Shown: positions 1,549 to 13,565, numbered from the stretch's first letter. The stretch is 27,780 bases of DNA from a virus (IMGVR_UViG_3300030012_000731:1-27780), one strand, 5' to 3'. Numbers and translations are program-made. Notes: a model not told the origin generated them from the letters alone.

Positions 1549-4137
1549 ATGCCTCGTTCCGGTCTAGCATTTGAGAAGGAAGAAGACGGACTCACGAAGA
1601 GAGTCCTTGATTTCTTTGAGCGCACCAGATTTGCATACCTCTCAGCGAAGGAAGACCCATCCGAGTATGGGAAGAAGTGGAAAGATATTGTCAAGAAGAT
1701 TCGTGAGGACTTCGACCAGATGAGCAACTTCGCTAGAGAGTTGAAGGAGTATGTAACAGAGAAGATTCTGTTCGATGATGATGTCTATGACCCGAAGTCT
1801 GGAACAGCCGAGCGTCTGTTCAAGGAAATAAAGGAGATGAGATTCAAATCGGAGAAGATAAGCGACCCCTTCTCCAAGTTGCTAGGTGATGATGTAATTG
1901 ACACATTCATGGAGAAACCAGATGTCTTCATATCATTCATCCACTATGCAATGCGCTCCCATCCCAACAAGATGCCTGACAAGATATACGAGTCACAGGA
2001 ACTCAAGCCCGACCAGATAACACAGGGAACGATGGGACTCGACTTGAAGGTAGAGGACATCCCGCTTTACATCATAGAGCATTATGGTGCAGAGGGGAAG
2101 GACACTCGTAGGGTCAAGAGCAAGTTCAAGTCAGCATTCTCTAGATTGAAGGAGATGTACAACGAGACCTATCCGGAAGACAAGTGGGATTCTCTTGTCG
2201 ATTTGGATGTAGTGAAGGCAGAGAAGAGCGAGGAGGAGAAGCAGGAAGTTGACTTCATCATACCCAACAAGCCGATGTATCGAATCTTTGAGACTGATGA
2301 CTTGAAGCAACTCAAGGGGTTCAGTGGTGAGTGGCTGGTTCAAGAAAAGTATGATGGGATGCGAATACAGATTCACAAAGATGGGGACAGCATCAAGATA
2401 TACTCCTTCAACAAGAAGGACATCACAGACAAATGCCCATTGCAAGTCAAGGAGATGGAGAAGAAAAACTTCGGGGATTGCATACTAGATGCTGAACTTA
2501 CACTCTTCTTAGACGATGAGCCATTGCATCGTGCAGATACGGTATCTCATGTGTTCAAGAAGGAAACCAAGGGAAGACTATCTGCTCACGTTTTCGACAT
2601 TATGAAGCATGAAGGGAAGATGATTGCAGATGAGCCATTGAGAGAGAGGGTCAACATTCTCTTCTATCAGTACAGTTCCCATTCAACTGAGAACCTAGCG
2701 TTCCCATCCAAGAAAGACACTAGGATAGCAGATTCAATCAAGGAAGTCGAAGAATACTCCAAGGTGATAATGGAACTACCATCATCAGAAGGAGTCGTAA
2801 TCAAGGACATTGAATCGACATACATCATTGGAAAGCAGAAGAATGCCAAGTGGATAAAGTGGAAGAAGTTCGTTGATTTGGATGTCGTGGTGTTAGAATC
2901 CAAGAAGACAGGAAGCGGTCTCTATTCATACACCATGGGAATAGGGCCAGTCAATGCCGAGACATCTAGGAATTACAAGACGACAGAACTAGGAAACAAG
3001 GCATACCTTCCAGTTGGCAAAGCATTGAACACGAAAGAGAAAGTAGAAGTCGGTGATATAGTCAGAGTCAAGGTAGACGAAGTGAAGAAGAGCAAAGATG
3101 GTTTCAGTCTCTATTCTGCCAAAGTGATAGAGATACCAGAGGTAACCGAGTCTGATAAAGTAGAAACCCTAGAGCAACTATCTACGAAGACGAAGAAATC
3201 CCTTGACTCGGCAATAGAGGCTGTTGCTGGTAAAGGAATGGAGAGATTCAAGGTAATGAGTGGTGTTGATGAGAAAGTCAAGAAGGGCTACTACATCACA
3301 GATGACATACACGGCACTGCTGAGATAATAATCAAATCCGACCTAGATGGATTCACTATTTACGGTTTCAGTGGTGATGACCTGATGCAGAAGAATGCCC
3401 TGTACAACATTGACATCTGGAAGGAACAGGTAACAGAGATACTCAAAACGAAAAGGTCTGAATTAAGGCTCGGAATAAGAAATGACATCATAGAATACGG
3501 TGATGACCCAAAACCATTCGACAAGATACTAGAGTTCGTAGAAGAACACTACAAGGAAGTCTATGAAGAACTGTTTGAGATGAAGCCTGAAAAACTCATG
3601 TCGTGGTTGAAGAAGCAAGAAGACATACAGTATGTTCATCCCAACAAGTTTCAAGCAAGAGATGACGTTCTTGAAAAAGACGTTGAGGAGTTAAAAAAAA
3701 AGGATACGCCTAATGAAGGCAGATTCAAGTTGTTCCAACGAGAAGATGGGAACATAGACTTCGTAATCAGAGCAGGTGGTGAGAAGATGGCTTGGACAAT
3801 AGACATAGAAGACACAGAAGATATATTCAATCTATTTGGCAAGTCAGGTAAGTTTCCAGCAATCGTAGCAACGACTGTCAATGAGGAGAAACTTCTAGAT
3901 GCAGGTGATTTGGAACTAGGAGTTCAGAAGGATGGATACCATGAGTATAGATTAGATGGTGATAAGTTCCAGACTAGAATGCATGTGCGAGTTGTTCCAT
4001 TGGATGAGCAAAAGACATGGTTGGCTTGGACTGGAAAGAAGCAGGAAATGTTAGACAAAACAGATGATGAAGGAGTATGGATAATATCAGAAGATAAGTA
4101 TGCTGATTTGCCGTTTCCGGAAGAAAATAGCGAGTAG
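1549..4137 (+). CDS. ATP-dependent DNA ligase-like protein with long N- and C-terminal extensions
   Basis: This 862-residue protein contains the covalent nucleotidyltransferase core that joins DNA nicks using ATP. Motif I is EKYDGMR with the predicted adenylated lysine at K267. DAEL is at 314-317, EGVVIKD starts at 414 and KWIKWKK at 434. An OB-fold follows to about residue 540. Residues 1-245 are helical and are not clearly a normal ligase DNA-binding domain. Residues 545-862 are an unrecognised extension. Its last third has a stretch (YHEYRLDGDKFQTRMHVRVV) faintly like the 3'-phosphoesterase domain of LigD, without that family's catalytic HxDxRLE motif. The start at ATG 1549 follows GAGGATGA. 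Placement directly before the protease and capsid genes, away from visible replication genes, is unusual and may mean it is packaged or acts at genome packaging. Ligase activity is likely from the intact motifs, but the biological role is inferred. Confidence 0.85.
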   Translation: MPRSGLAFEKEEDGLTKRVLDFFERTRFAYLSAKEDPSEYGKKWKDIVKKIREDFDQMSNFARELKEYVTEKILFDDDVYDPKSGTAERLFKEIKEMRFKSEKISDPFSKLLGDDVIDTFMEKPDVFISFIHYAMRSHPNKMPDKIYESQELKPDQITQGTMGLDLKVEDIPLYIIEHYGAEGKDTRRVKSKFKSAFSRLKEMYNETYPEDKWDSLVDLDVVKAEKSEEEKQEVDFIIPNKPMYRIFETDDLKQLKGFSGEWLVQEKYDGMRIQIHKDGDSIKIYSFNKKDITDKCPLQVKEMEKKNFGDCILDAELTLFLDDEPLHRADTVSHVFKKETKGRLSAHVFDIMKHEGKMIADEPLRERVNILFYQYSSHSTENLAFPSKKDTRIADSIKEVEEYSKVIMELPSSEGVVIKDIESTYIIGKQKNAKWIKWKKFVDLDVVVLESKKTGSGLYSYTMGIGPVNAETSRNYKTTELGNKAYLPVGKALNTKEKVEVGDIVRVKVDEVKKSKDGFSLYSAKVIEIPEVTESDKVETLEQLSTKTKKSLDSAIEAVAGKGMERFKVMSGVDEKVKKGYYITDDIHGTAEIIIKSDLDGFTIYGFSGDDLMQKNALYNIDIWKEQVTEILKTKRSELRLGIRNDIIEYGDDPKPFDKILEFVEEHYKEVYEELFEMKPEKLMSWLKKQEDIQYVHPNKFQARDDVLEKDVEELKKKDTPNEGRFKLFQREDGNIDFVIRAGGEKMAWTIDIEDTEDIFNLFGKSGKFPAIVATTVNEEKLLDAGDLELGVQKDGYHEYRLDGDKFQTRMHVRVVPLDEQKTWLAWTGKKQEMLDKTDDEGVWIISEDKYADLPFPEENSE

Positions 4138-5411: not shown

Positions 5412-6791
5412 ATGAGTAAAGGACATATTAGAACAATAGCAGACCTAGAAGCCAGCACCTATGGCATGGTCGGAGGAACAGGGAATGCACTGCTCAAGAG
5501 CAGTGGAGTGATTGGAGGATTCGGAGTCCCACACGATGCGACATCGAACCCCTTCAACGCGGCGGCAGATGGGCTTGGTGACCTATACAACGTGCTGTAC
5601 GGACAGAAAGTCTGGTCGATGCTAAATCAGGAAGTCAACGCACTTTCGATGATTTCCAAGAGGCCATACACTTCCAGCGGTTGGAGGATTCTAAAGAGCC
5701 GACCTGCTGGTGGTAGTGGAAACGCCTTCGGTCTTGGTACGACTAACCCCGGTACGGATACATCTGACCTATCTGGAATATCAGCAGATATGATTGGTGG
5801 TGTTGGTGAGAACGCTTCTCTGGACAACAATGCTCAACTAAGGGCATTGTCTCCTGAGTACACCAAACTCTACGTCAGTCCAAAGACTGTGGCACACCTC
5901 TTTGAGTTCTCCGAACTCGGAATGGAGTTGGCCGCAATCGATGACGGTGTTGGTGACATCCGCTCCATAGTCCGTGAGGACATGGGTAAGCATCACGCTG
6001 AGGTTCAGAACAAGATGCTTCTGATGCCACTAGAGCATTACGACAACGCAGAGTACGAACTGATTGAGGACAACTACACTTCTCTATTGAAGATAGTATC
6101 CTCTGCTAGCGAACTAGCCGCAATGGGTGACGCAGACATGACTGCAACCAGTGCAGGTGGAAGCCCCGGTGACCTACCAACACAGATGATTAGGATTTTC
6201 AACGCTAACAGGAGTCTATCACGAAGCGGTGGAGACTACACTGGTACGGATGACTTCCTATCGGCTGAGGTTGACTTTGGAGACACATACGCCGCAAATG
6301 ACGCAAGAGTTCTAACTCTGACCATCCTTAACGATATGATTAGGAGAATCAGGCAGAACGGAGGTAACCCCAAGGTCATGCTAACTGGATACGATACTAT
6401 CCAGCACATATCTGACCTACTACAGAGCCAAGAGAGGTTCATGGACAGGAAGGAAATCGTACCCACCCACAACGGAGTTCGTGGAGTCAAGGGTGCAGAG
6501 GTTGGTTTCAGAGTTGCAACATACTACGACATACCAATCATTCCAGCCAAGGACATGCCTCAGACTGGTAATGCAACCGCGAACAAGTTGAGTGACATAC
6601 TCATCCTAGACACTGACCATCTGTGGCTATCGGTGATGAAGCCTACTCAGTACTTTGAGAATGGTATTACCAACGGTGACCCATTCGGTGTTGGGAAACT
6701 TGGGAACCAAGGCATGTACCGCACAATGGGCGAGACAGGCTGTTCGTTCTTCAAGGGCCAAGGAAAGATTACCAACATAAAGAGTGCGTAG
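5412..6791 (+). CDS. major capsid protein, HK97-like
   Basis: This 459-residue protein follows the protease-scaffold gene, with AGGTGATTAAGT before its ATG. It is inferred to form the icosahedral shell. Supporting features are its position, its length, a flexible glycine-rich N-terminus (about 1-50), and a stretch with alternating hydrophobics around NALSMISKRPYTSSGWRIL (residues about 76-95), as in HK97-fold shells that begin after an N-arm. There is a long central region with PEYTKLYVSPKTVAHLFEFS and a C-terminal beta segment ending near FFKGQGKITNIKSA. There are no cysteine clusters or membrane segments. It lacks an obvious cleavage site, although the neighbouring protease implies N-terminal processing. 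It is probably the most highly expressed gene here. Fold assignment comes from context and general sequence character, not from a match I can run. Confidence 0.8.
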   Translation: MSKGHIRTIADLEASTYGMVGGTGNALLKSSGVIGGFGVPHDATSNPFNAAADGLGDLYNVLYGQKVWSMLNQEVNALSMISKRPYTSSGWRILKSRPAGGSGNAFGLGTTNPGTDTSDLSGISADMIGGVGENASLDNNAQLRALSPEYTKLYVSPKTVAHLFEFSELGMELAAIDDGVGDIRSIVREDMGKHHAEVQNKMLLMPLEHYDNAEYELIEDNYTSLLKIVSSASELAAMGDADMTATSAGGSPGDLPTQMIRIFNANRSLSRSGGDYTGTDDFLSAEVDFGDTYAANDARVLTLTILNDMIRRIRQNGGNPKVMLTGYDTIQHISDLLQSQERFMDRKEIVPTHNGVRGVKGAEVGFRVATYYDIPIIPAKDMPQTGNATANKLSDILILDTDHLWLSVMKPTQYFENGITNGDPFGVGKLGNQGMYRTMGETGCSFFKGQGKITNIKSA

Positions 6792-7226: not shown

Positions 7227-7243
7227 CAATTTATGGTGTGAAT

Positions 7244-7723
7244 ATGGCAGTAGTTAGGAGCAAGAGTGGTCGCAAAATTCAGTGGCAGGGATATACTTTC
7301 GATAGAAATGGTACGAGGGTTCCTACGCGCAAAGGCATTGTCCTTTACGGTGATGGGAATGTACATGTCGAGTTCACAGCAGATGACAAGAGAGAGATTC
7401 AAAGGCTGATGGAAACATCGCCTCACAAGGTAAAGCACCTATCAAAAGCACTACGTCTACGTGGCCCTGATGGTAAAGGTGTGGTGGATAGCCTATATCC
7501 AAAGACCAGAACAGAGAAACTAATGGGAAGAAAGAAAGTTCCTGAGCCTGAGATAGCAGAGGTAAAGGAAGAGCCAAAAGAAGAGAAGAAGGAGGGAAGT
7601 CCACTTCCTCCTGACTTGAACAAACTCACAGTGAAAGTCCTAAAGGAACTCTTGGAGGAAAGAGGACTTTCTACAGAAGGTAGAAAAGCAGACCTAATTA
7701 AGACGCTAACCGAGGGAGCATAA
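7244..7723 (+). CDS. SAP-domain protein
   Basis: This is a 159-residue protein counted from ATG 7244, with the GGTG at 7235 acting as ribosome binding site. A GTG at 7238 would add two residues. The C-terminal 35 residues (LTVKVLKELLEERGLSTEGR, then KADLIKTLTEGA) are a textbook SAP motif, a helix-turn-helix-like DNA-binding hairpin. Residues 1-60 hold a basic segment (VVRSKSGRKIQWQGYTF) with beta character. Residues 85-120 are a charged, proline-containing linker (PEPEIAEVKEEPKEEKKE). In phages such proteins can bind the genome near the head interior or act at packaging. Here it lies between the head genes and the accessory cassette and overlaps the next start by one base (TAATG). DNA binding is well supported by the motif, and the role is inferred. 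Confidence 0.8.
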   Translation: MAVVRSKSGRKIQWQGYTFDRNGTRVPTRKGIVLYGDGNVHVEFTADDKREIQRLMETSPHKVKHLSKALRLRGPDGKGVVDSLYPKTRTEKLMGRKKVPEPEIAEVKEEPKEEKKEGSPLPPDLNKLTVKVLKELLEERGLSTEGRKADLIKTLTEGA

Positions 7724-8039: not shown

Positions 8040-8462
8040 ATGCCAAGTATAGACACAGACACAAGACTAGTGATGACAATACTGTTCGTAGGAGCAGTCA
8101 GCGGAATAAACATCTACTTCTATTCCCAGTACGGGATGAGTTTCCCATACGGAGCAGAGGAACATGCTGTCCTCTTCGGGATATCCACTATAGGTGGGAT
8201 TATGATTTTGAAAGCCCTATTCGATATGATTCTCAATGATTGGATTGAGGAATTCTTGCTACAGAGGAGAATAGATGCTTATTGGGCTAGGAAGGCTAGA
8301 GAAGAGGAGAACAGAAAGAGAGTCAGGGAGTCTTTCAGGCAGTTTCAACAGAACTGGAACCAGACAGTGGTTTCGCCACCAAACGTCTACGGTGACAGCA
8401 ACCTTCCAAATCTGAACCCAAACACACCGGGTTCATTCTTAACCTTGGAAACAGAACAGTGA
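8040..8462 (+). CDS. two-pass membrane protein with helical tail
   Basis: This is a 140-residue protein with start ATG 8040, four bases after GCGTGAT. Two hydrophobic segments, residues about 9-28 (LVMTILFVGAVSGINIYFYS) and 43-63 (VLFGISTIGGIMILKALFDMI), are followed by a long charged helix (about 65-110) rich in R, E and Q. The end is proline- and asparagine-rich. Topology would place the charged tail on the inner side by the positive-inside rule. It could be a holin-like protein, a membrane anchor for the GTPase encoded two genes later, or an internal virion membrane protein used at entry. Nothing in the sequence chooses between these. It sits at the start of the accessory cassette. Confidence 0.7.
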   Translation: MPSIDTDTRLVMTILFVGAVSGINIYFYSQYGMSFPYGAEEHAVLFGISTIGGIMILKALFDMILNDWIEEFLLQRRIDAYWARKAREEENRKRVRESFRQFQQNWNQTVVSPPNVYGDSNLPNLNPNTPGSFLTLETEQ

Positions 8463-8475
8463 GGGAGTGATGTGA

Positions 8476-8700
8476 GTGGTCAGCGAAATCCTATTTGGAA
8501 TGGATGAGTCAACTCTCGCATATGACTTACAAAGAGCGCACTCTGCTGATATCTGGTTTCTCAGGGCTAGGTTTTGGTTTTGGGGTGCAGTGGCCTCAGT
8601 TACTAGTTTTGTCGTGGGACAAGCGTTTGCCATAGCAGGAATAAATACACTATCAATTGCTTGGAACGGAGCAGTAGATTTCTGGAATCACCTGTGGTGA
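8476..8700 (+). CDS. small membrane protein
   Basis: This is a 74-residue protein. The GTG at 8476 follows the GAGGGAGTGAT binding site at 8461-8471, so I prefer it to the in-frame ATG at 8500. Residues about 28-55 contain a tryptophan- and phenylalanine-rich membrane segment (FWFWGAVASVTSFVVGQAFA), and the end is aromatic (FWNHLW). A short polar N-terminus precedes it. Its stop TGA (8698-8700) is inside the GGTGAT site of the GTPase gene, so the two are probably translationally coupled. A partner or membrane recruiter of the GTPase is a reasonable but untested idea. A holin role is the alternative. Confidence 0.65.
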   Translation: MVSEILFGMDESTLAYDLQRAHSADIWFLRARFWFWGAVASVTSFVVGQAFAIAGINTLSIAWNGAVDFWNHLW

Positions 8701-8701
8701 T
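8696..8701 (+). promoter_or_regulatory. ribosome binding site deciding a TTG start
   Basis: GGTGAT at 8696-8701 lies three bases before TTG 8705 but twelve before ATG 8714. Spacing of three to four bases is what most other genes here show, which favours the TTG start. The site also contains the stop codon of the preceding gene. Confidence 0.5.
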
Positions 8702-8704
8702 ATC

Positions 8705-9376
8705 TTGTCAGTAATGGCAGGATTCGCCATACTGATAGTCGAGGGACTTAACAAGATATACCAGAGAATACACGCAATCAACTTCGGAATATATGGAGCA
8801 AGCCAAGCAGGAAAGACAACGTTGAATCACCAGTTGAGAACAAGAGGCGAGGTTCCTGATATTCGACATAGGACAGAGGGATTACAACGTGCAACTAGAA
8901 AGTATGTCAAACTAGATGGAGATGCACATACAGTGAAGACCGCTGACTTAGGAGGGCAGACGGTCTACTGGCAAGAGTGGATTAAGGACATGAAAGAAAG
9001 GAGAGTCAAGTATGTTATATTTATGATTGACGACAGACACATGAACAAGCACTATGACATCGAACAGCAGTTGTGTTGGACATTCCTAGTTGATACAATC
9101 TGTGAACCATACTGGCATCACAATGGGAGAAAGAAGAAGAAGAGAGAGGCAGACTACCCAATTGCAGTATCAATATGGGCTAACAAATACGACCTATGGA
9201 AAGACAGGTATGACTACGATGGCCCAATAGAGGGACATCCGATATTCGCCGCATTCAGAGAGGGAATGCAGAAGTTAAACGACAAGGGAATACCCTGTCA
9301 TAAATACATAGTCAGTGCTAAATCCGATTCAGAGATGGTCTACAGGGGTGTCCTAACAATGATAAAGGACTACTAG
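8705..9376 (+). CDS. Arf/Ras-like small GTPase
   Basis: This 223-residue protein has a full set of small GTPase motifs. The P-loop is GASQAGKT (31-38), the G3 motif DLGGQ is at 81-85, NKYD is at 160-163 and SAK at 204-206. The double glycine plus glutamine of DLGGQ is the form seen in Arf, Sar and SRbeta-type GTPases, and the glutamine is the residue expected for hydrolysis. A hydrophobic N-terminus (VMAGFAILIVEGLNKIYQRI) could be an amphipathic or membrane-inserting helix, again Arf-like. A lysine/arginine-rich insert (GRKKKKRE, about 141-148) precedes G4. It follows two membrane protein genes, coupled through a stop-in-RBS junction. GTP binding is well supported by motif order and spacing. 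What it does in a virion gene cluster is unknown. Assembly, egress or host membrane traffic mimicry are candidates. Confidence 0.85.
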   Translation: MSVMAGFAILIVEGLNKIYQRIHAINFGIYGASQAGKTTLNHQLRTRGEVPDIRHRTEGLQRATRKYVKLDGDAHTVKTADLGGQTVYWQEWIKDMKERRVKYVIFMIDDRHMNKHYDIEQQLCWTFLVDTICEPYWHHNGRKKKKREADYPIAVSIWANKYDLWKDRYDYDGPIEGHPIFAAFREGMQKLNDKGIPCHKYIVSAKSDSEMVYRGVLTMIKDY

Positions 9377-9388
9377 AGGTGAAAGGGC

Positions 9389-10066
9389 ATGAGTATGCAG
9401 TTTACACCACCTAGCCTCATCGGGGCTAACTCAACTAATGTAACGAATAAAGCATTCATGGACAAGGAGGATGCCGCAAGAGCGGCGGGTCCAGTAATGC
9501 AATACGAGTACAAAAACCACAAGCCAAAGAAACAATTGAAGGAGATTATGAAAGTCCTCAAACCAGAAAGCAAAACCTTCCTCAAAGTTCCTTACAAGTT
9601 CAAGTACAACATAAAGGACAGATGCGTTGTCTGTGGAACCCACAAGGTTTGGGAAGCAGGTGACAACCTGAGACCACCACTGCCATTGCACAAGGTACGC
9701 AAGGGATATCCAATGAGAGGAACCTATTGTGAGAAACACGCCGCTATACACAGGCAATATGAGATGCTAGAGCAACAGATACTAGCAGAGGAACACGGTC
9801 TCTCTTTCAGTGCATACATACCCAAGGCTCCTTCAATGCCAACAACATTGAATCCACTAGCGAGTGGCCCGTTGACTAGTTTGAAAGCAAGCGATATCGC
9901 TTCTTTGAGTTCATTAGGATGGACTATCAAACCACCAGCGTCTAATGAAGAGAGTAAAGAAGAAGAACTATTCCGTCTGACTGTGGAATCAGACGCAGTT
10001 AACTCAAGAGTGAAAACATTATTGACTGAGGGTACTAAGGTTCCTGTCGTGGAGAGTGAGCAGTGA
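9389..10066 (+). CDS. zinc-binding (CxxC...CxxH) protein
   Basis: This is a 225-residue protein with ATG 9389 behind AGAGGTGA. A likely zinc site is formed by C79 and C82 (CVVCG) with C114 and H117 (YCEKH), 31 residues apart, resembling a zinc-ribbon or treble-clef arrangement with basic residues between (LHKVRKGYPMRG). Residues 1-70 are lysine-rich after a glycine/asparagine start. Residues 118-140 form a helix, and the C-terminal part is serine-, alanine- and glutamate-rich. It lies between the GTPase gene and the Q/N-rich gene, its stop overlapping the next ATG (TGATG). The metal site could mediate nucleic acid or protein contact. No specific family is recognised. Confidence 0.65.
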   Translation: MSMQFTPPSLIGANSTNVTNKAFMDKEDAARAAGPVMQYEYKNHKPKKQLKEIMKVLKPESKTFLKVPYKFKYNIKDRCVVCGTHKVWEAGDNLRPPLPLHKVRKGYPMRGTYCEKHAAIHRQYEMLEQQILAEEHGLSFSAYIPKAPSMPTTLNPLASGPLTSLKASDIASLSSLGWTIKPPASNEESKEEELFRLTVESDAVNSRVKTLLTEGTKVPVVESEQ

Positions 10067-10773
10067 TGGGATTATTCGGTACTAGCAATAGCACTTTGAT
10101 GAATACAATGCAGTCCAATCAACAGTCTCAGTTCAAGACAATGAACAATCTGTTGACTCTACAAGAAAACCATGTAGAGGACTTCTTTCAATATCATGGA
10201 GAGGCATTCCTAGCGGCATTGGCTCAACTCATTGAGGATACTGTACAGAAGGTGTTGGGACAGATGCTCCCTGAGTTGAAGTTCACAACTGACAGTGCTG
10301 GTGTGATGAACATGCACTCCGATGCCACTTCCGCGTTTGGCACAATTACAGAGGCTAACATCAACCTAGACCTACAGACACTCCTTGCCTCTGCAATCAA
10401 CTCAGAGGTAGTAATGCAAAGGAGAATGGCAAAAGCACAGTATTTGGAATCTCAAGGTTTCGCTACGCCAGCAGGGGAGCAACAACAATTATCGATGGGA
10501 GGAGCGGGAATGAGCAATCCCGGTGGAGTAGACCCGTCAATGATACAGGGTAACAGTGCCGCAGTTGGAATGAACAATGCAATGATGCAACAGCAGATGG
10601 CATTCAACAACCAGTCAGGTTATCCAGTGCCACCTGCTGGATATGACAACATGAATAATCCATACTGGATTGACCCCGTTTCGGGTCAGATGTCCTATAC
10701 ACCACCTTCAAGTGGTCTTGGTCTTGCTAATGCCATGAGTAAGGGCATTGCATGGGCTAAGTGGCTTGCATAG
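10066..10773 (+). CDS. hypothetical protein with Q/N/M/G-rich C-terminal half
   Basis: This is a 235-residue protein with start ATG 10066 (a GTG at 10063 is less likely). Residues 1-125 are helical, with QSNQQSQFKTMNNLLTLQEN followed by a conserved-looking FLAALAQLIEDTVQKVLGQM helix. Residues 140-215 are low complexity, rich in M, Q, N, G and P (for example MQQQMAFNNQSGYPVPPAG), probably disordered. No membrane segment or catalytic motif is visible. Low-complexity tails of this type occur in virion-associated and phase-separating proteins, but no function can be assigned. It closes the accessory cassette that begins with the membrane proteins. Confidence 0.6.
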   Translation: MGLFGTSNSTLMNTMQSNQQSQFKTMNNLLTLQENHVEDFFQYHGEAFLAALAQLIEDTVQKVLGQMLPELKFTTDSAGVMNMHSDATSAFGTITEANINLDLQTLLASAINSEVVMQRRMAKAQYLESQGFATPAGEQQQLSMGGAGMSNPGGVDPSMIQGNSAAVGMNNAMMQQQMAFNNQSGYPVPPAGYDNMNNPYWIDPVSGQMSYTPPSSGLGLANAMSKGIAWAKWLA

Positions 10774-10782
10774 GTGGGGTGA

Positions 10783-12468
10783 ATGGGCAGAATCTATCTG
10801 GATGAAGACGTAAGCGCAGATGGGCAGACGTTAATTCTAGATGCTAACAAGAACGCAGATTACCAGACTCTCATTGAAGAGAAGTTCTTTCGACAGATGT
10901 TAGCATATCCTTTCTCTTGGATAAGCAACAGGAAGTCGAACTCCAAACTAGATATGATACAAGGTCGAATGGGTGGGCTTCTGACATACACCCAAGAGGA
11001 GTTCGATAGAGAACCAGACAACGAAGGATATGAGTTTGATGAGCAGGACTTCAAGGACTATCAGAGAAAGTTCCTAGACACTATGGAGAAGCAGTTGATT
11101 GATGAGATAGTCAAGGACTTGAAGCGTGAGAACTTGCTTCCAGACGATATCCTATCCACTTCGATACTTACAAAGATGAAGGAGATGGGTTTCATCCTCT
11201 CTGATTTGGACAACAACAACAAACTCCAAAGAACGATGAAGGGGAAGAAGACCGCAGAGGGGTTCAAGGAAGGATTGCCATTTGGTGCTATAGATGATGA
11301 TACTACAGGCGGATTCATAGGAGCCTTCCTTGATTCTAGGCCAATACTGTATGAGGAGATAAAAGACCACATAGAGGTAAAAGATAACCAAATCACATTC
11401 GATACTGAGAAGTACATTGAACAGATATCAGTAGCAGAGGGCTATGGAAAGTTAGAGAAGAAAGATTCCAAACTAACTATCGCCAGCCCGAAGAGTGGTG
11501 AAGTAGACGAGACCGTTGAGATATTCAGCATAGACAGGACTAATGATGGTAGATACAGGATGGAAGGATTTGGTAAGACCAGACTCATCGATGACGTAGA
11601 AGAGACATGGGATGTCTATCAAAACCTACTTTCATTGAAGAATCTAGAGAAGTACATCGAGAAAGTAATTCTATCACAGAAGCAATCACCATTGAAGAAC
11701 GTTCTATTGTCTCTAGTCGAACCAGAGGATAGGATGTTGAACGTGGGTAAACTGGACATATTCGTGGATAACCTATCTGCTGGTGATTTGAAGAACGTTG
11801 GTTTCGGGCTGAACAATCCACTGACTAAGGAGACTTGGATGAAGTACGTGAGAAAACTAGAGGGCAAGGCTGTAGAGGGAAGTACGAAGATTAAGCCAAT
11901 TGTAAAACTGATGGAGTATGCATTTAACAAATTCACACAAGACAAACCATTCAGCGAAGTGGATGACTCTGCGCAATTGGAAAGGGTAAGACGATTAAAA
12001 GACTCCAAGAAGAACCAGATACTAGACGATTTGACCTCCGAACAATTGTATGACATTTGGGAGGACAACGGCAAGCCTACGATAGTAGATATAGAAAAGA
12101 TTGATGATTTGGCAAATGCCCTATACAATCAAGCCATGGGTAAAGATGTCATTGAGGAAACAAAGGACAAAGGCGGCAATACAGTACCAGTTATGGAATC
12201 AGGAAAGGAGAGAAAAGGCATGATTAGACTAAGGGTGAATTTCAGACCAACAAAACTAGTCAGTGCTAGGGACTATGAGATATATCAAAAAAGAGTTGAC
12301 GAGAAGGGCAAGCCGATGAAAGACCTCGGAAGAAGACCCTTGGGTGGTGAGGGGCCAAGAACCGCCGTAGAATTAGACAGGCAGAAGATGCAAGATACAG
12401 AGAAGGATTTCAAAAGCCTAATGGAGTTGAAGTTAGGCTACAATAGATTGAAGGGACTGGTGGGCTAA
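10783..12468 (+). CDS. large hypothetical structural-region protein
   Basis: This is a 561-residue charged, soluble protein with ATG 10783 behind TAGGTGGGGTGA. It appears mostly helical (for example residues 85-140 with KDYQRKFLDTMEKQLIDEIV) and includes a beta-rich part around residues 200-265. The C-terminal 90 residues carry a basic strand segment (MIRLRVNFRPTKLVSARDYE) followed by GEGPRTAVELDR. There is no Walker motif and no membrane segment. Location directly before the connector gene could suit a portal-proximal or neck protein, but it does not read as a portal to me. The stop TAA overlaps the next ATG. Confidence 0.6.
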   Translation: MGRIYLDEDVSADGQTLILDANKNADYQTLIEEKFFRQMLAYPFSWISNRKSNSKLDMIQGRMGGLLTYTQEEFDREPDNEGYEFDEQDFKDYQRKFLDTMEKQLIDEIVKDLKRENLLPDDILSTSILTKMKEMGFILSDLDNNNKLQRTMKGKKTAEGFKEGLPFGAIDDDTTGGFIGAFLDSRPILYEEIKDHIEVKDNQITFDTEKYIEQISVAEGYGKLEKKDSKLTIASPKSGEVDETVEIFSIDRTNDGRYRMEGFGKTRLIDDVEETWDVYQNLLSLKNLEKYIEKVILSQKQSPLKNVLLSLVEPEDRMLNVGKLDIFVDNLSAGDLKNVGFGLNNPLTKETWMKYVRKLEGKAVEGSTKIKPIVKLMEYAFNKFTQDKPFSEVDDSAQLERVRRLKDSKKNQILDDLTSEQLYDIWEDNGKPTIVDIEKIDDLANALYNQAMGKDVIEETKDKGGNTVPVMESGKERKGMIRLRVNFRPTKLVSARDYEIYQKRVDEKGKPMKDLGRRPLGGEGPRTAVELDRQKMQDTEKDFKSLMELKLGYNRLKGLVG

Positions 12469-13565
12469 TGGGCAAGGTATCCTCCCCAAGTGATTTTACC
12501 TCGATAAATCCTGACTATACAAACGGTAGAGGGTTCTACACAACACACACCGATGTATCCAATCTGTTGCAGATAAACTCATTCACATCATCCACCACAC
12601 CTACGATAGCAGAGGTAGGCAAGATAATCAAGAGAGTCGAGGAGAAGGTTGATGACAAGACTAAGACATCCTATCGACCAACCATCTACAAGGATGAGTT
12701 CCATGACTTTGAGGGATTCACAAAGAGCGCATATCCTCTGAGAACATACAGGGATTATGTTGGTTTTGTTCAATTGTCATACCCAAAAGTTCAGAAGATT
12801 GTTAGACTAGAAGTGTGGCAAGGAAACGAATACAAGGACTTGGCATCTGCAACTGCATCCCTCGATGTTCCTGAGTCAGCAACCACAAGTGATTGGACAA
12901 TCACACTCACCGTTGGTATACCGACAACATACACATTCACGCTTAGAAACCTAGCAGATAACTCAGTTAGAGATTTCTTCGATAATTTCGGTGCAAAGAC
13001 AACTGCCAGTCAGATAGTAGATGCAATCAACGAGGTATATCCAATGAAGACAGCCAAGTTCACTGGTGAAACAGCGGCAAAGACATTGAAGGACACAACT
13101 AATACAGTCAATATCTCCGACTTCTTCTACGCTACAACAGACAGCGAGGACAGTTCAAAGGTGATTATCTCTTCACTTCTGATGGGTGAGGACGGAACAA
13201 ATTGCACTATAGCCTCTACATTCGGCTCAGTGAAAGGATTCACAGATAACCAAGACCAACGTAGATTGGGTGAATATTGGAGCATCGGAGATGAGGGAAA
13301 GATATTCTTCCATACAGAATATCCCTTCATATCCCACAATGGAATACGAGTTACCTATCTTGCAGGGGAGGGGAGAGTACCTGCTACGATACACGATGCC
13401 GCTACTAAGTTAGTAGCCGCAGAAGTGATACGACACGATGACAATTCGATTCTGATTGCAGAGACCAACTCTAACATCGATTTGAAGACCAAACATGACA
13501 TCCTGATAGAAGAAGCCAACAAGACCCTAGAGGGCAAGTCGAACATGGTGTACTTCATTGGGTGA
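12468..13565 (+). CDS. head-tail connector (adaptor) protein with inserted beta domain
   Basis: This 365-residue protein probably joins the portal to the tail. Residues 100-135 (KIVRLEVWQGNEYKDLAS) and 270-345 have the layout of connector proteins of the gp6/YqbG type. A strand pair GEYWSIGDEGKIFFHTE and GIRVTYLAGEGRVPATI leads into a helix DAATKLVAAEVIRHDDNSI and a final helix. Between them, residues about 140-265 are an extra beta-rich domain with TASQIVDAINEV and GEDGTNCTIAS segments. These resemble the repeats of the large fibre protein at 18569. The position between head and tail genes supports the call. The start overlaps the previous stop in TAATG, and the stop (13563-13565) lies inside the next gene's GGTGAT site. 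Confidence 0.7.
   Translation: MGKVSSPSDFTSINPDYTNGRGFYTTHTDVSNLLQINSFTSSTTPTIAEVGKIIKRVEEKVDDKTKTSYRPTIYKDEFHDFEGFTKSAYPLRTYRDYVGFVQLSYPKVQKIVRLEVWQGNEYKDLASATASLDVPESATTSDWTITLTVGIPTTYTFTLRNLADNSVRDFFDNFGAKTTASQIVDAINEVYPMKTAKFTGETAAKTLKDTTNTVNISDFFYATTDSEDSSKVIISSLLMGEDGTNCTIASTFGSVKGFTDNQDQRRLGEYWSIGDEGKIFFHTEYPFISHNGIRVTYLAGEGRVPATIHDAATKLVAAEVIRHDDNSILIAETNSNIDLKTKHDILIEEANKTLEGKSNMVYFIG

Follow-up and report, generated by a model that had tools for sequence, protein, structure and literature searches.

To our knowledge, little is known of how tailed viruses leave archaeal cells, and the locus described here raises the question of whether some of them bring a membrane machine of their own. 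In a 27.8-kb virus record (the window, by which we mean the whole stretch of DNA that was analyzed), a first-pass annotation had pointed to five co-directional, tightly packed genes at 8040-10773, in which two small membrane proteins precede a GTPase with full G motifs and a hydrophobic N-terminus. Our analysis bore this out. All five ORFs were found at this place; they share a strand and are separated by 13, 4, 12, and -4 bp, as follows:

8040-8462, plus strand: TM140, module gene 1, 140 aa, with two transmembrane (TM) segments, a charged helix at the C-terminus, and a tail that is conserved
8476-8700, plus strand: TM74, module gene 2, a 74-aa one-TM protein whose N-terminal stretch DESTLAYDLQRAHSADIWFLRAR is nearly invariant
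8705-9376, plus strand: small GTPase, favored as Arf-type by motifs and predicted fold, module gene 3, 223 aa, TTG start
9389-10066, plus strand: Cys/His (putative zinc) protein, module gene 4, 225 aa, CVVC...GTYCEKH
10063-10773, plus strand: LowC, module gene 5, 236 aa, with the conserved core NNLLTLQENHVEDFFQYHGE and a Q/N/M-rich tail

Hydropathy placed the TM segments of TM140 at residues 10-28 and 43-61 and the single segment of TM74 at about residues 38-56. The tail of TM140 is of the SPTFLT type in relatives. A search of PHROGs yielded no match that counts for any of the block proteins.

Genomic setting of the five-gene block

We class the window as a magrovirus-like cluster of morphogenesis genes, judging from its capsid protein, from the order of its genes, and from the size (80-115 kb) of the contigs on which its relatives occur. 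The group to which it belongs displays features expected of Magrovirales, namely a Druskaviridae-related HK97 capsid protein with head genes, and large marine genomes. Poseidoniales are taken from the literature as the host of magrovirus-type viruses (PMC10768690), and the carriers of the five-gene block are a large group of ocean viruses, probably with marine archaea as hosts. Two genes of the cluster serve as landmarks on either side of the block:

5412-6791, plus strand: HK97-fold major capsid protein of the HCTV-1 (Druskaviridae) type, by sequence match
12468-13565, plus strand: HCTV-1 gp117-like protein (head-tail connector region), the 3' limit of the genes inserted relative to HCTV-1

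The capsid protein is ~25% identical to its counterpart in Haloarcula virus HCTV-1. Alongside its gene, the prohead protease gene is also found 5' of the block, and a tail-tube protein gene is found 3' of it, as is the gp117-like gene. Since the capsid-to-gp117 interval of HCTV-1 holds only four small genes, the block represents extra DNA relative to the HCTV-1 family. The earlier description of the block as lying between head and connector genes needs refining on the 3' side, where a variable gene (10783-12468) precedes the connector-like gene. This gene, the next after the block, encodes 561 aa and is the most variable of the cluster; its product is 21-27% identical in many relatives and unrecognizable in others. 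Elsewhere in the cluster, an 862-residue protein with a central ATP-dependent DNA ligase domain is encoded directly 5' of the head protease (1549-4137), and its gene is kept at the same place in related loci; in HCTV-1 that place is taken by a zeta-toxin-domain protein plus a small gene. Downstream of the capsid gene and ahead of the GTPase block, 7238-7723 encodes a small protein with a C-terminal SAP (DNA-binding) domain, which a simple search recovers in part of the relatives, not all.

Motifs, fold and family of the GTPase

The following features were located within the GTPase gene:

8708-8770, plus strand: N-terminal hydrophobic helix, residues 2-22 (hydropathy, structure model)
8792-8821, plus strand: G1/P-loop motif YGASQAGKTT, residues 30-39
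8945-8980, plus strand: G3 DLGGQ with W89 and W92, residues 81-92 (Arf/G-alpha-type DxGGQ-x6-W)
9125-9148, plus strand: GRKKKKRE, residues 141-148, Lys/Arg-rich, in the inserted hairpin region before beta-5

The window protein contains GASQAGKT, DLGGQ, NKYD, and SAK together with a switch-I Thr (RTEG, T57). Since G1, the switch-I RT, DxGG plus W, and the G4 NKxD are near-invariant across 252 distinct homologues (179 and 73 in the two lineages described below), these motifs are not a product of chance. At G5, the window lineage has SAK and the second lineage ATR; apart from this ATR, the proteins possess the motifs of the TRAFAC small GTPase superfamily. DxGG[Q/E] with W at +7 was present in each of the 250 sequences that were parsed (179/179 and 71/71). 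The catalytic Gln of G3 (window 8945-8959) is replaced by Glu in 109 of 179 proteins of lineage 1 and 18 of 73 of lineage 2, a change that, judged from sequence, suggests altered hydrolysis or dependence on a partner. Selection on the GTPase is strongly purifying (median dN/dS 0.03 in 80 close pairs), and it ranks among the best-conserved proteins of the morphogenesis cluster.

An AlphaFold model of the GTPase was obtained from 55 diverse sequences (pLDDT 77); an initial model from a shallow alignment (pLDDT 59) gave weak G-alpha matches only and was discarded. Structures were ranked by VIA-align on the best 1000 Foldseek matches, with Z gaps of <1 read as ties. Results showed that the closest structure was ARF6 (Z 18.7) and that ranks 1-33 were all Arf/Arl/ArfR (Z 18.7-17.6), with Arf6, Arf1, Arl1, and Arl3 at the top and Asgard ArfR1 lower down. 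The best non-Arf structures were RagO (Z 17.5) and Rab5 (Z 16.7), which corresponds to an Arf lead of 1-2 Z units. The predicted fold and the DxGG[Q/E]-x6-W signature agree with the Arf-type assignment made in the first-pass annotation, which is favored on these grounds, short of proof. With sequence profiles, the two-lineage GTPase profile matched Rab33B (2.4e-4) and an Asgard Arf (3.6e-4) in PDB, and weak Pfam matches among 55 GTPases were to SRPRB (54), MMR_HSR1 (53), and Arf (23). The window GTPase scored 18.9 bits against PF00025 (Arf; gathering score 22.3), a cut-off exceeded in 0/6 virus genomes, and 20.1 bits against PF09439 (SRPRB), under its gathering score of 25. NCBIfam small_GTP matched in 22/22 cases (best 2.5e-6), with the window protein under the curated cut-off.

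The N-terminal helix (moment 0.1-0.32) is not clearly amphipathic, and the protein begins M-S-V, with no Gly2. The insertion before beta-5 is Lys/Arg-rich, being of the KKKKxK type in lineage 1 and of the RYRTLKSRWKGKK type in lineage 2. Either the helix or this basic insertion could touch a membrane.

Grouping with packaging ATPases had been named at the outset as a result that would speak against a membrane GTPase, and the protein does not so group. We reject a packaging ATPase in view of DxGGQ, NKxD, and the Arf fold, and the terminase is a separate gene in lineage 2. When phage and plasmid collections, which may omit near records, were searched by tblastn, the GTPase was unmatched, as was the Cys/His protein in the phage collection, to which the same reservation applies. 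Since the sole match to the GTPase among contigs of cellular genomes was a virus contig inside a Maricaulis MAG, no cellular origin could be traced. That genome record (Maricaulis sp. IN14 43523; L391, L083, L389, and L390) includes at least three magrovirus-type contigs, and the MAG is contaminated with virus DNA.

Conservation of the block in two virus lineages

A single-protein search of IMG/VR with the GTPase returned 128 relatives, 80 of which were kept, and a more diverse alignment gave 402; distinct GTPases of lineage 1 share at least 54% identity. A capsid-anchored search was also performed, with HCTV-1 first, so that loci were not picked by the GTPase itself. The block was found in every magrovirus-type capsid locus whose DNA extends far enough downstream, and it was absent from all of the HCTV-1-like (Druskaviridae-related) loci (L160-L179) in the same search.

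On one of several virus contigs, the Maricaulis MAG that bears L083 contains a third copy that has diverged deeply. This contig encodes, in turn, a protein with two TM segments, one with a single TM segment, the GTPase, an AbrB-like small protein, and the Cys/His protein. A search with this copy recovered 170 viral relatives, which constitute the second lineage. Their GTPases are ~30% identical to that of the window, and their genomes encode a capsid protein of the type seen in the window (E 1e-58 to 1e-103). In these genomes the block precedes the large terminase by 7-9 kb and the capsid gene by about 21 kb. A terminase-anchored search found it in all second-lineage loci with enough upstream DNA, counting L558, whose contig has the block just beyond the examined stretch, as locus L461. 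The other result that the first-pass annotation took as refuting, a lack of conservation in related contigs, did not occur. All five genes keep their order in 134/134 loci of lineage 1 and 69/69 of lineage 2, each locus being counted by a distinct GTPase gene with sufficient flank.

The AbrB/MazE-like small gene between the GTPase and Cys/His genes (L414:9438-9617) occurs in approximately a quarter of second-lineage loci, and the remaining loci have a spacer of similar length there (169-259 bp overall). Near the second-lineage block, L414:3186-4037 appears by eye to be HMG-CoA lyase-like, and some second-lineage loci have a similar gene. An HMG-CoA lyase gene is known from Aoguangviridae (PMC10768690), and by this gene the second-lineage loci may be Aoguangviridae.

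Profiles compared lineage against lineage matched for the GTPase (probability 100%), the Cys/His protein (94%, E 8e-8), and LowC (65%, E 6e-5), with nothing comparable among off-diagonal pairs. By hhalign, neither TM140 vs. TM184 nor TM74 vs. TM86 was significant; consensus shuffle tests gave p values of 0.07 and 0.015 for the TM pairs, which count as weak since the control (P120 vs. TM184) gave 0.02. Because profile similarity of the TM proteins between lineages is not significant, they are treated here as equivalents in position and architecture. Mirror-tree correlations did not separate the block (0.77-0.90) from its neighbors (P365 with the block, 0.84-0.91). The main reason to consider that the genes act together as one functional module is that the five-gene order is constant in two genomic places.

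Possible roles of the module

The predicted TM segments and the hydrophobic N-terminal helix of the GTPase would link the module to membranes. Our preferred reading, to which we would give slightly less than an even chance, is that the module acts as a late Arf-like switch, which is bound to membrane and reshapes that of the host for the assembly or egress of virions. The core of the module would be a membrane-associated Arf-type GTPase switch, held at or recruited to the host cytoplasmic membrane by the TM proteins, and the Cys/His protein could be its regulator or effector, as proposed for ArvC on ArvA. The module would be produced late, together with virion proteins, and the membrane would be bent, marked or opened in the style of ArvA vesiculation, such that virions assemble there or exit. 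This reading is weakened by the related haloarchaeal tailed viruses, which leave cells without the block, and by the narrow Arf lead, the non-significant similarity of the TM proteins between lineages, and the results for OapB and OapC given below.

The position of the window-lineage block among head and connector genes, and its conservation at about the level of the capsid protein, would also be expected if the TM proteins, the GTPase, and their partners were packaged into the virion and acted on the membrane of the next host at genome delivery. However, in the second lineage the block precedes the terminase and is some 21 kb away from the capsid gene, a GTPase dependent on cytosolic GTP would be an unusual virion cargo, and TM proteins of such a kind are not known from tailed virions; we regard this route of entry as unlikely. 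An assembly platform, in which procapsids or packaging complexes are tethered to the membrane and GTP hydrolysis times head completion, would suit the position of the block in either lineage (flanked by head and connector genes in one, ahead of the terminase in the other), as well as its conservation in every tested locus. Since the related HCTV-1 viruses assemble without the block, this too seems to us an unlikely role.

The module might instead take over the host membrane apart from virions, whether by blocking or redirecting vesicle formation, secretion or division, or by excluding other viruses. The Arf-like fold, the parallel with ArvA, and the change of genomic place as a unit are consistent with such a role, but genes of this sort are usually accessory and patchy, whereas the block is present in every tested locus, strongly constrained, and among late genes, which makes the proposal more unlikely still. 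Finally, as the subfamily is not settled by sequence profiles, the protein could come from another branch of the GTPases (of Rab/Ras/Rag or SR-beta type), serve a function that has nothing to do with membranes, and adjoin membrane proteins that are not its partners. Both DxGG[Q/E]-x6-W and the structural ranking favor Arf, and chance would not keep the five genes in one order in two contexts; we consider this reading very improbable.

Kept without exception in ocean viruses that are abundant, an Arf-type GTPase module would be a concrete candidate for the exit of tailed viruses from archaeal cells. Such a module would also place Arf-like membrane switches outside cellular archaea and eukaryotes, a matter relevant to how eukaryotic membrane traffic arose. 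It is conceivable, although we lean against it, that throughout an entire order of tailed archaeal viruses the host membrane is remodeled, for the release or entry of virions, by an Arf-type GTPase machine that the viruses themselves encode, composed of two TM adaptors, a switch, a zinc regulator, and a Q/N-rich partner. If true, these viruses would pass the membrane by a route distinct from holin-endolysin and pyramid-forming systems, and theirs would be the first Arf-like machine among viruses of prokaryotes. The five genes form a hallmark set for these viruses, and the literature searched names no such set. Our searches of the magrovirus literature found no mention of a GTPase, although it may be annotated in the founding paper (Philosof 2017), which lay outside those searches. 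Literature searches also found no description of a virus-encoded membrane machine for such viruses, and they concur with the first-pass annotation that a GTPase of this type has no standard virion role.

Comparison with known systems

Druskaviridae (HCTV-1, HVTV-1) have in common with the window the capsid protein, the protease, and the gp117-like gene, with their order kept, but the GTPase block was not found in them. Small G domains also occur in giant viruses of eukaryotes (Pithovirus, Klosneuvirus, and others), which provided the best viral structural matches. However, the GTPases of giant viruses are mostly annotated as Ras/Rab-type, are outside the tailed viruses, and have no conserved TM-TM-GTPase-zinc block. 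No tailed virus was named among the best 50 viral structure-library matches to the GTPase.

Among cellular proteins, Arf/Arl (eukaryotes, Asgard ArfR) share with the viral GTPase the fold (Z about 18), DxGGQ-x6-W, the switch-I Thr, and an N-terminal helix. The viral protein differs in that it is without the myristoylation glycine, its helix is hydrophobic rather than clearly amphipathic, its Gln is often Glu, and it has an insertion before beta-5; identity in structural alignments is 14-23%. SR-beta (SRPRB), a membrane-anchored GTPase, likewise has its Arf-like G domain behind a hydrophobic segment at the N-terminus, and was the most consistent weak Pfam match (54/55 viral GTPases), but the window protein is below the cut-off and no SR-alpha partner gene was seen in the block.

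The closest described system appears to be ArvA/B/C, with which the viral block was compared by description and Pfam. In Haloferax volcanii, the small Arf-like GTPase ArvA (OapA) bears an amphipathic helix at its N-terminus, and vesicle output is lowered by its deletion and raised by its overexpression (PMC10927574). In the same operon, arvB and arvC also influence vesicle production, and ArvC contains a zinc finger and is a proposed GAP (PMC10927574). Common to the Arv system and the viral block are a small Arf-like GTPase of one domain, which begins with a helix of membrane type, and a zinc-finger or Cys/His gene one or two genes downstream, and PF01926 and PF00025 are among the profile matches of both ArvA and the viral GTPase. 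The profile of OapB (PF09846), presumably ArvB, matched in 0/6 large virus genomes and does match in Haloferax volcanii. That of OapC (PF09845), which we take to be ArvC, had no match to the viral Cys/His protein and weak sub-threshold matches away from the block in 2/6 large virus genomes. Unlike Arv, the viral block is encoded by a virus, within a morphogenesis region, with two TM genes upstream and an extra basic hairpin before beta-5. Although we do not class it as a member of the Arv system, the likeness suggests that the viral block may work in a similar way.
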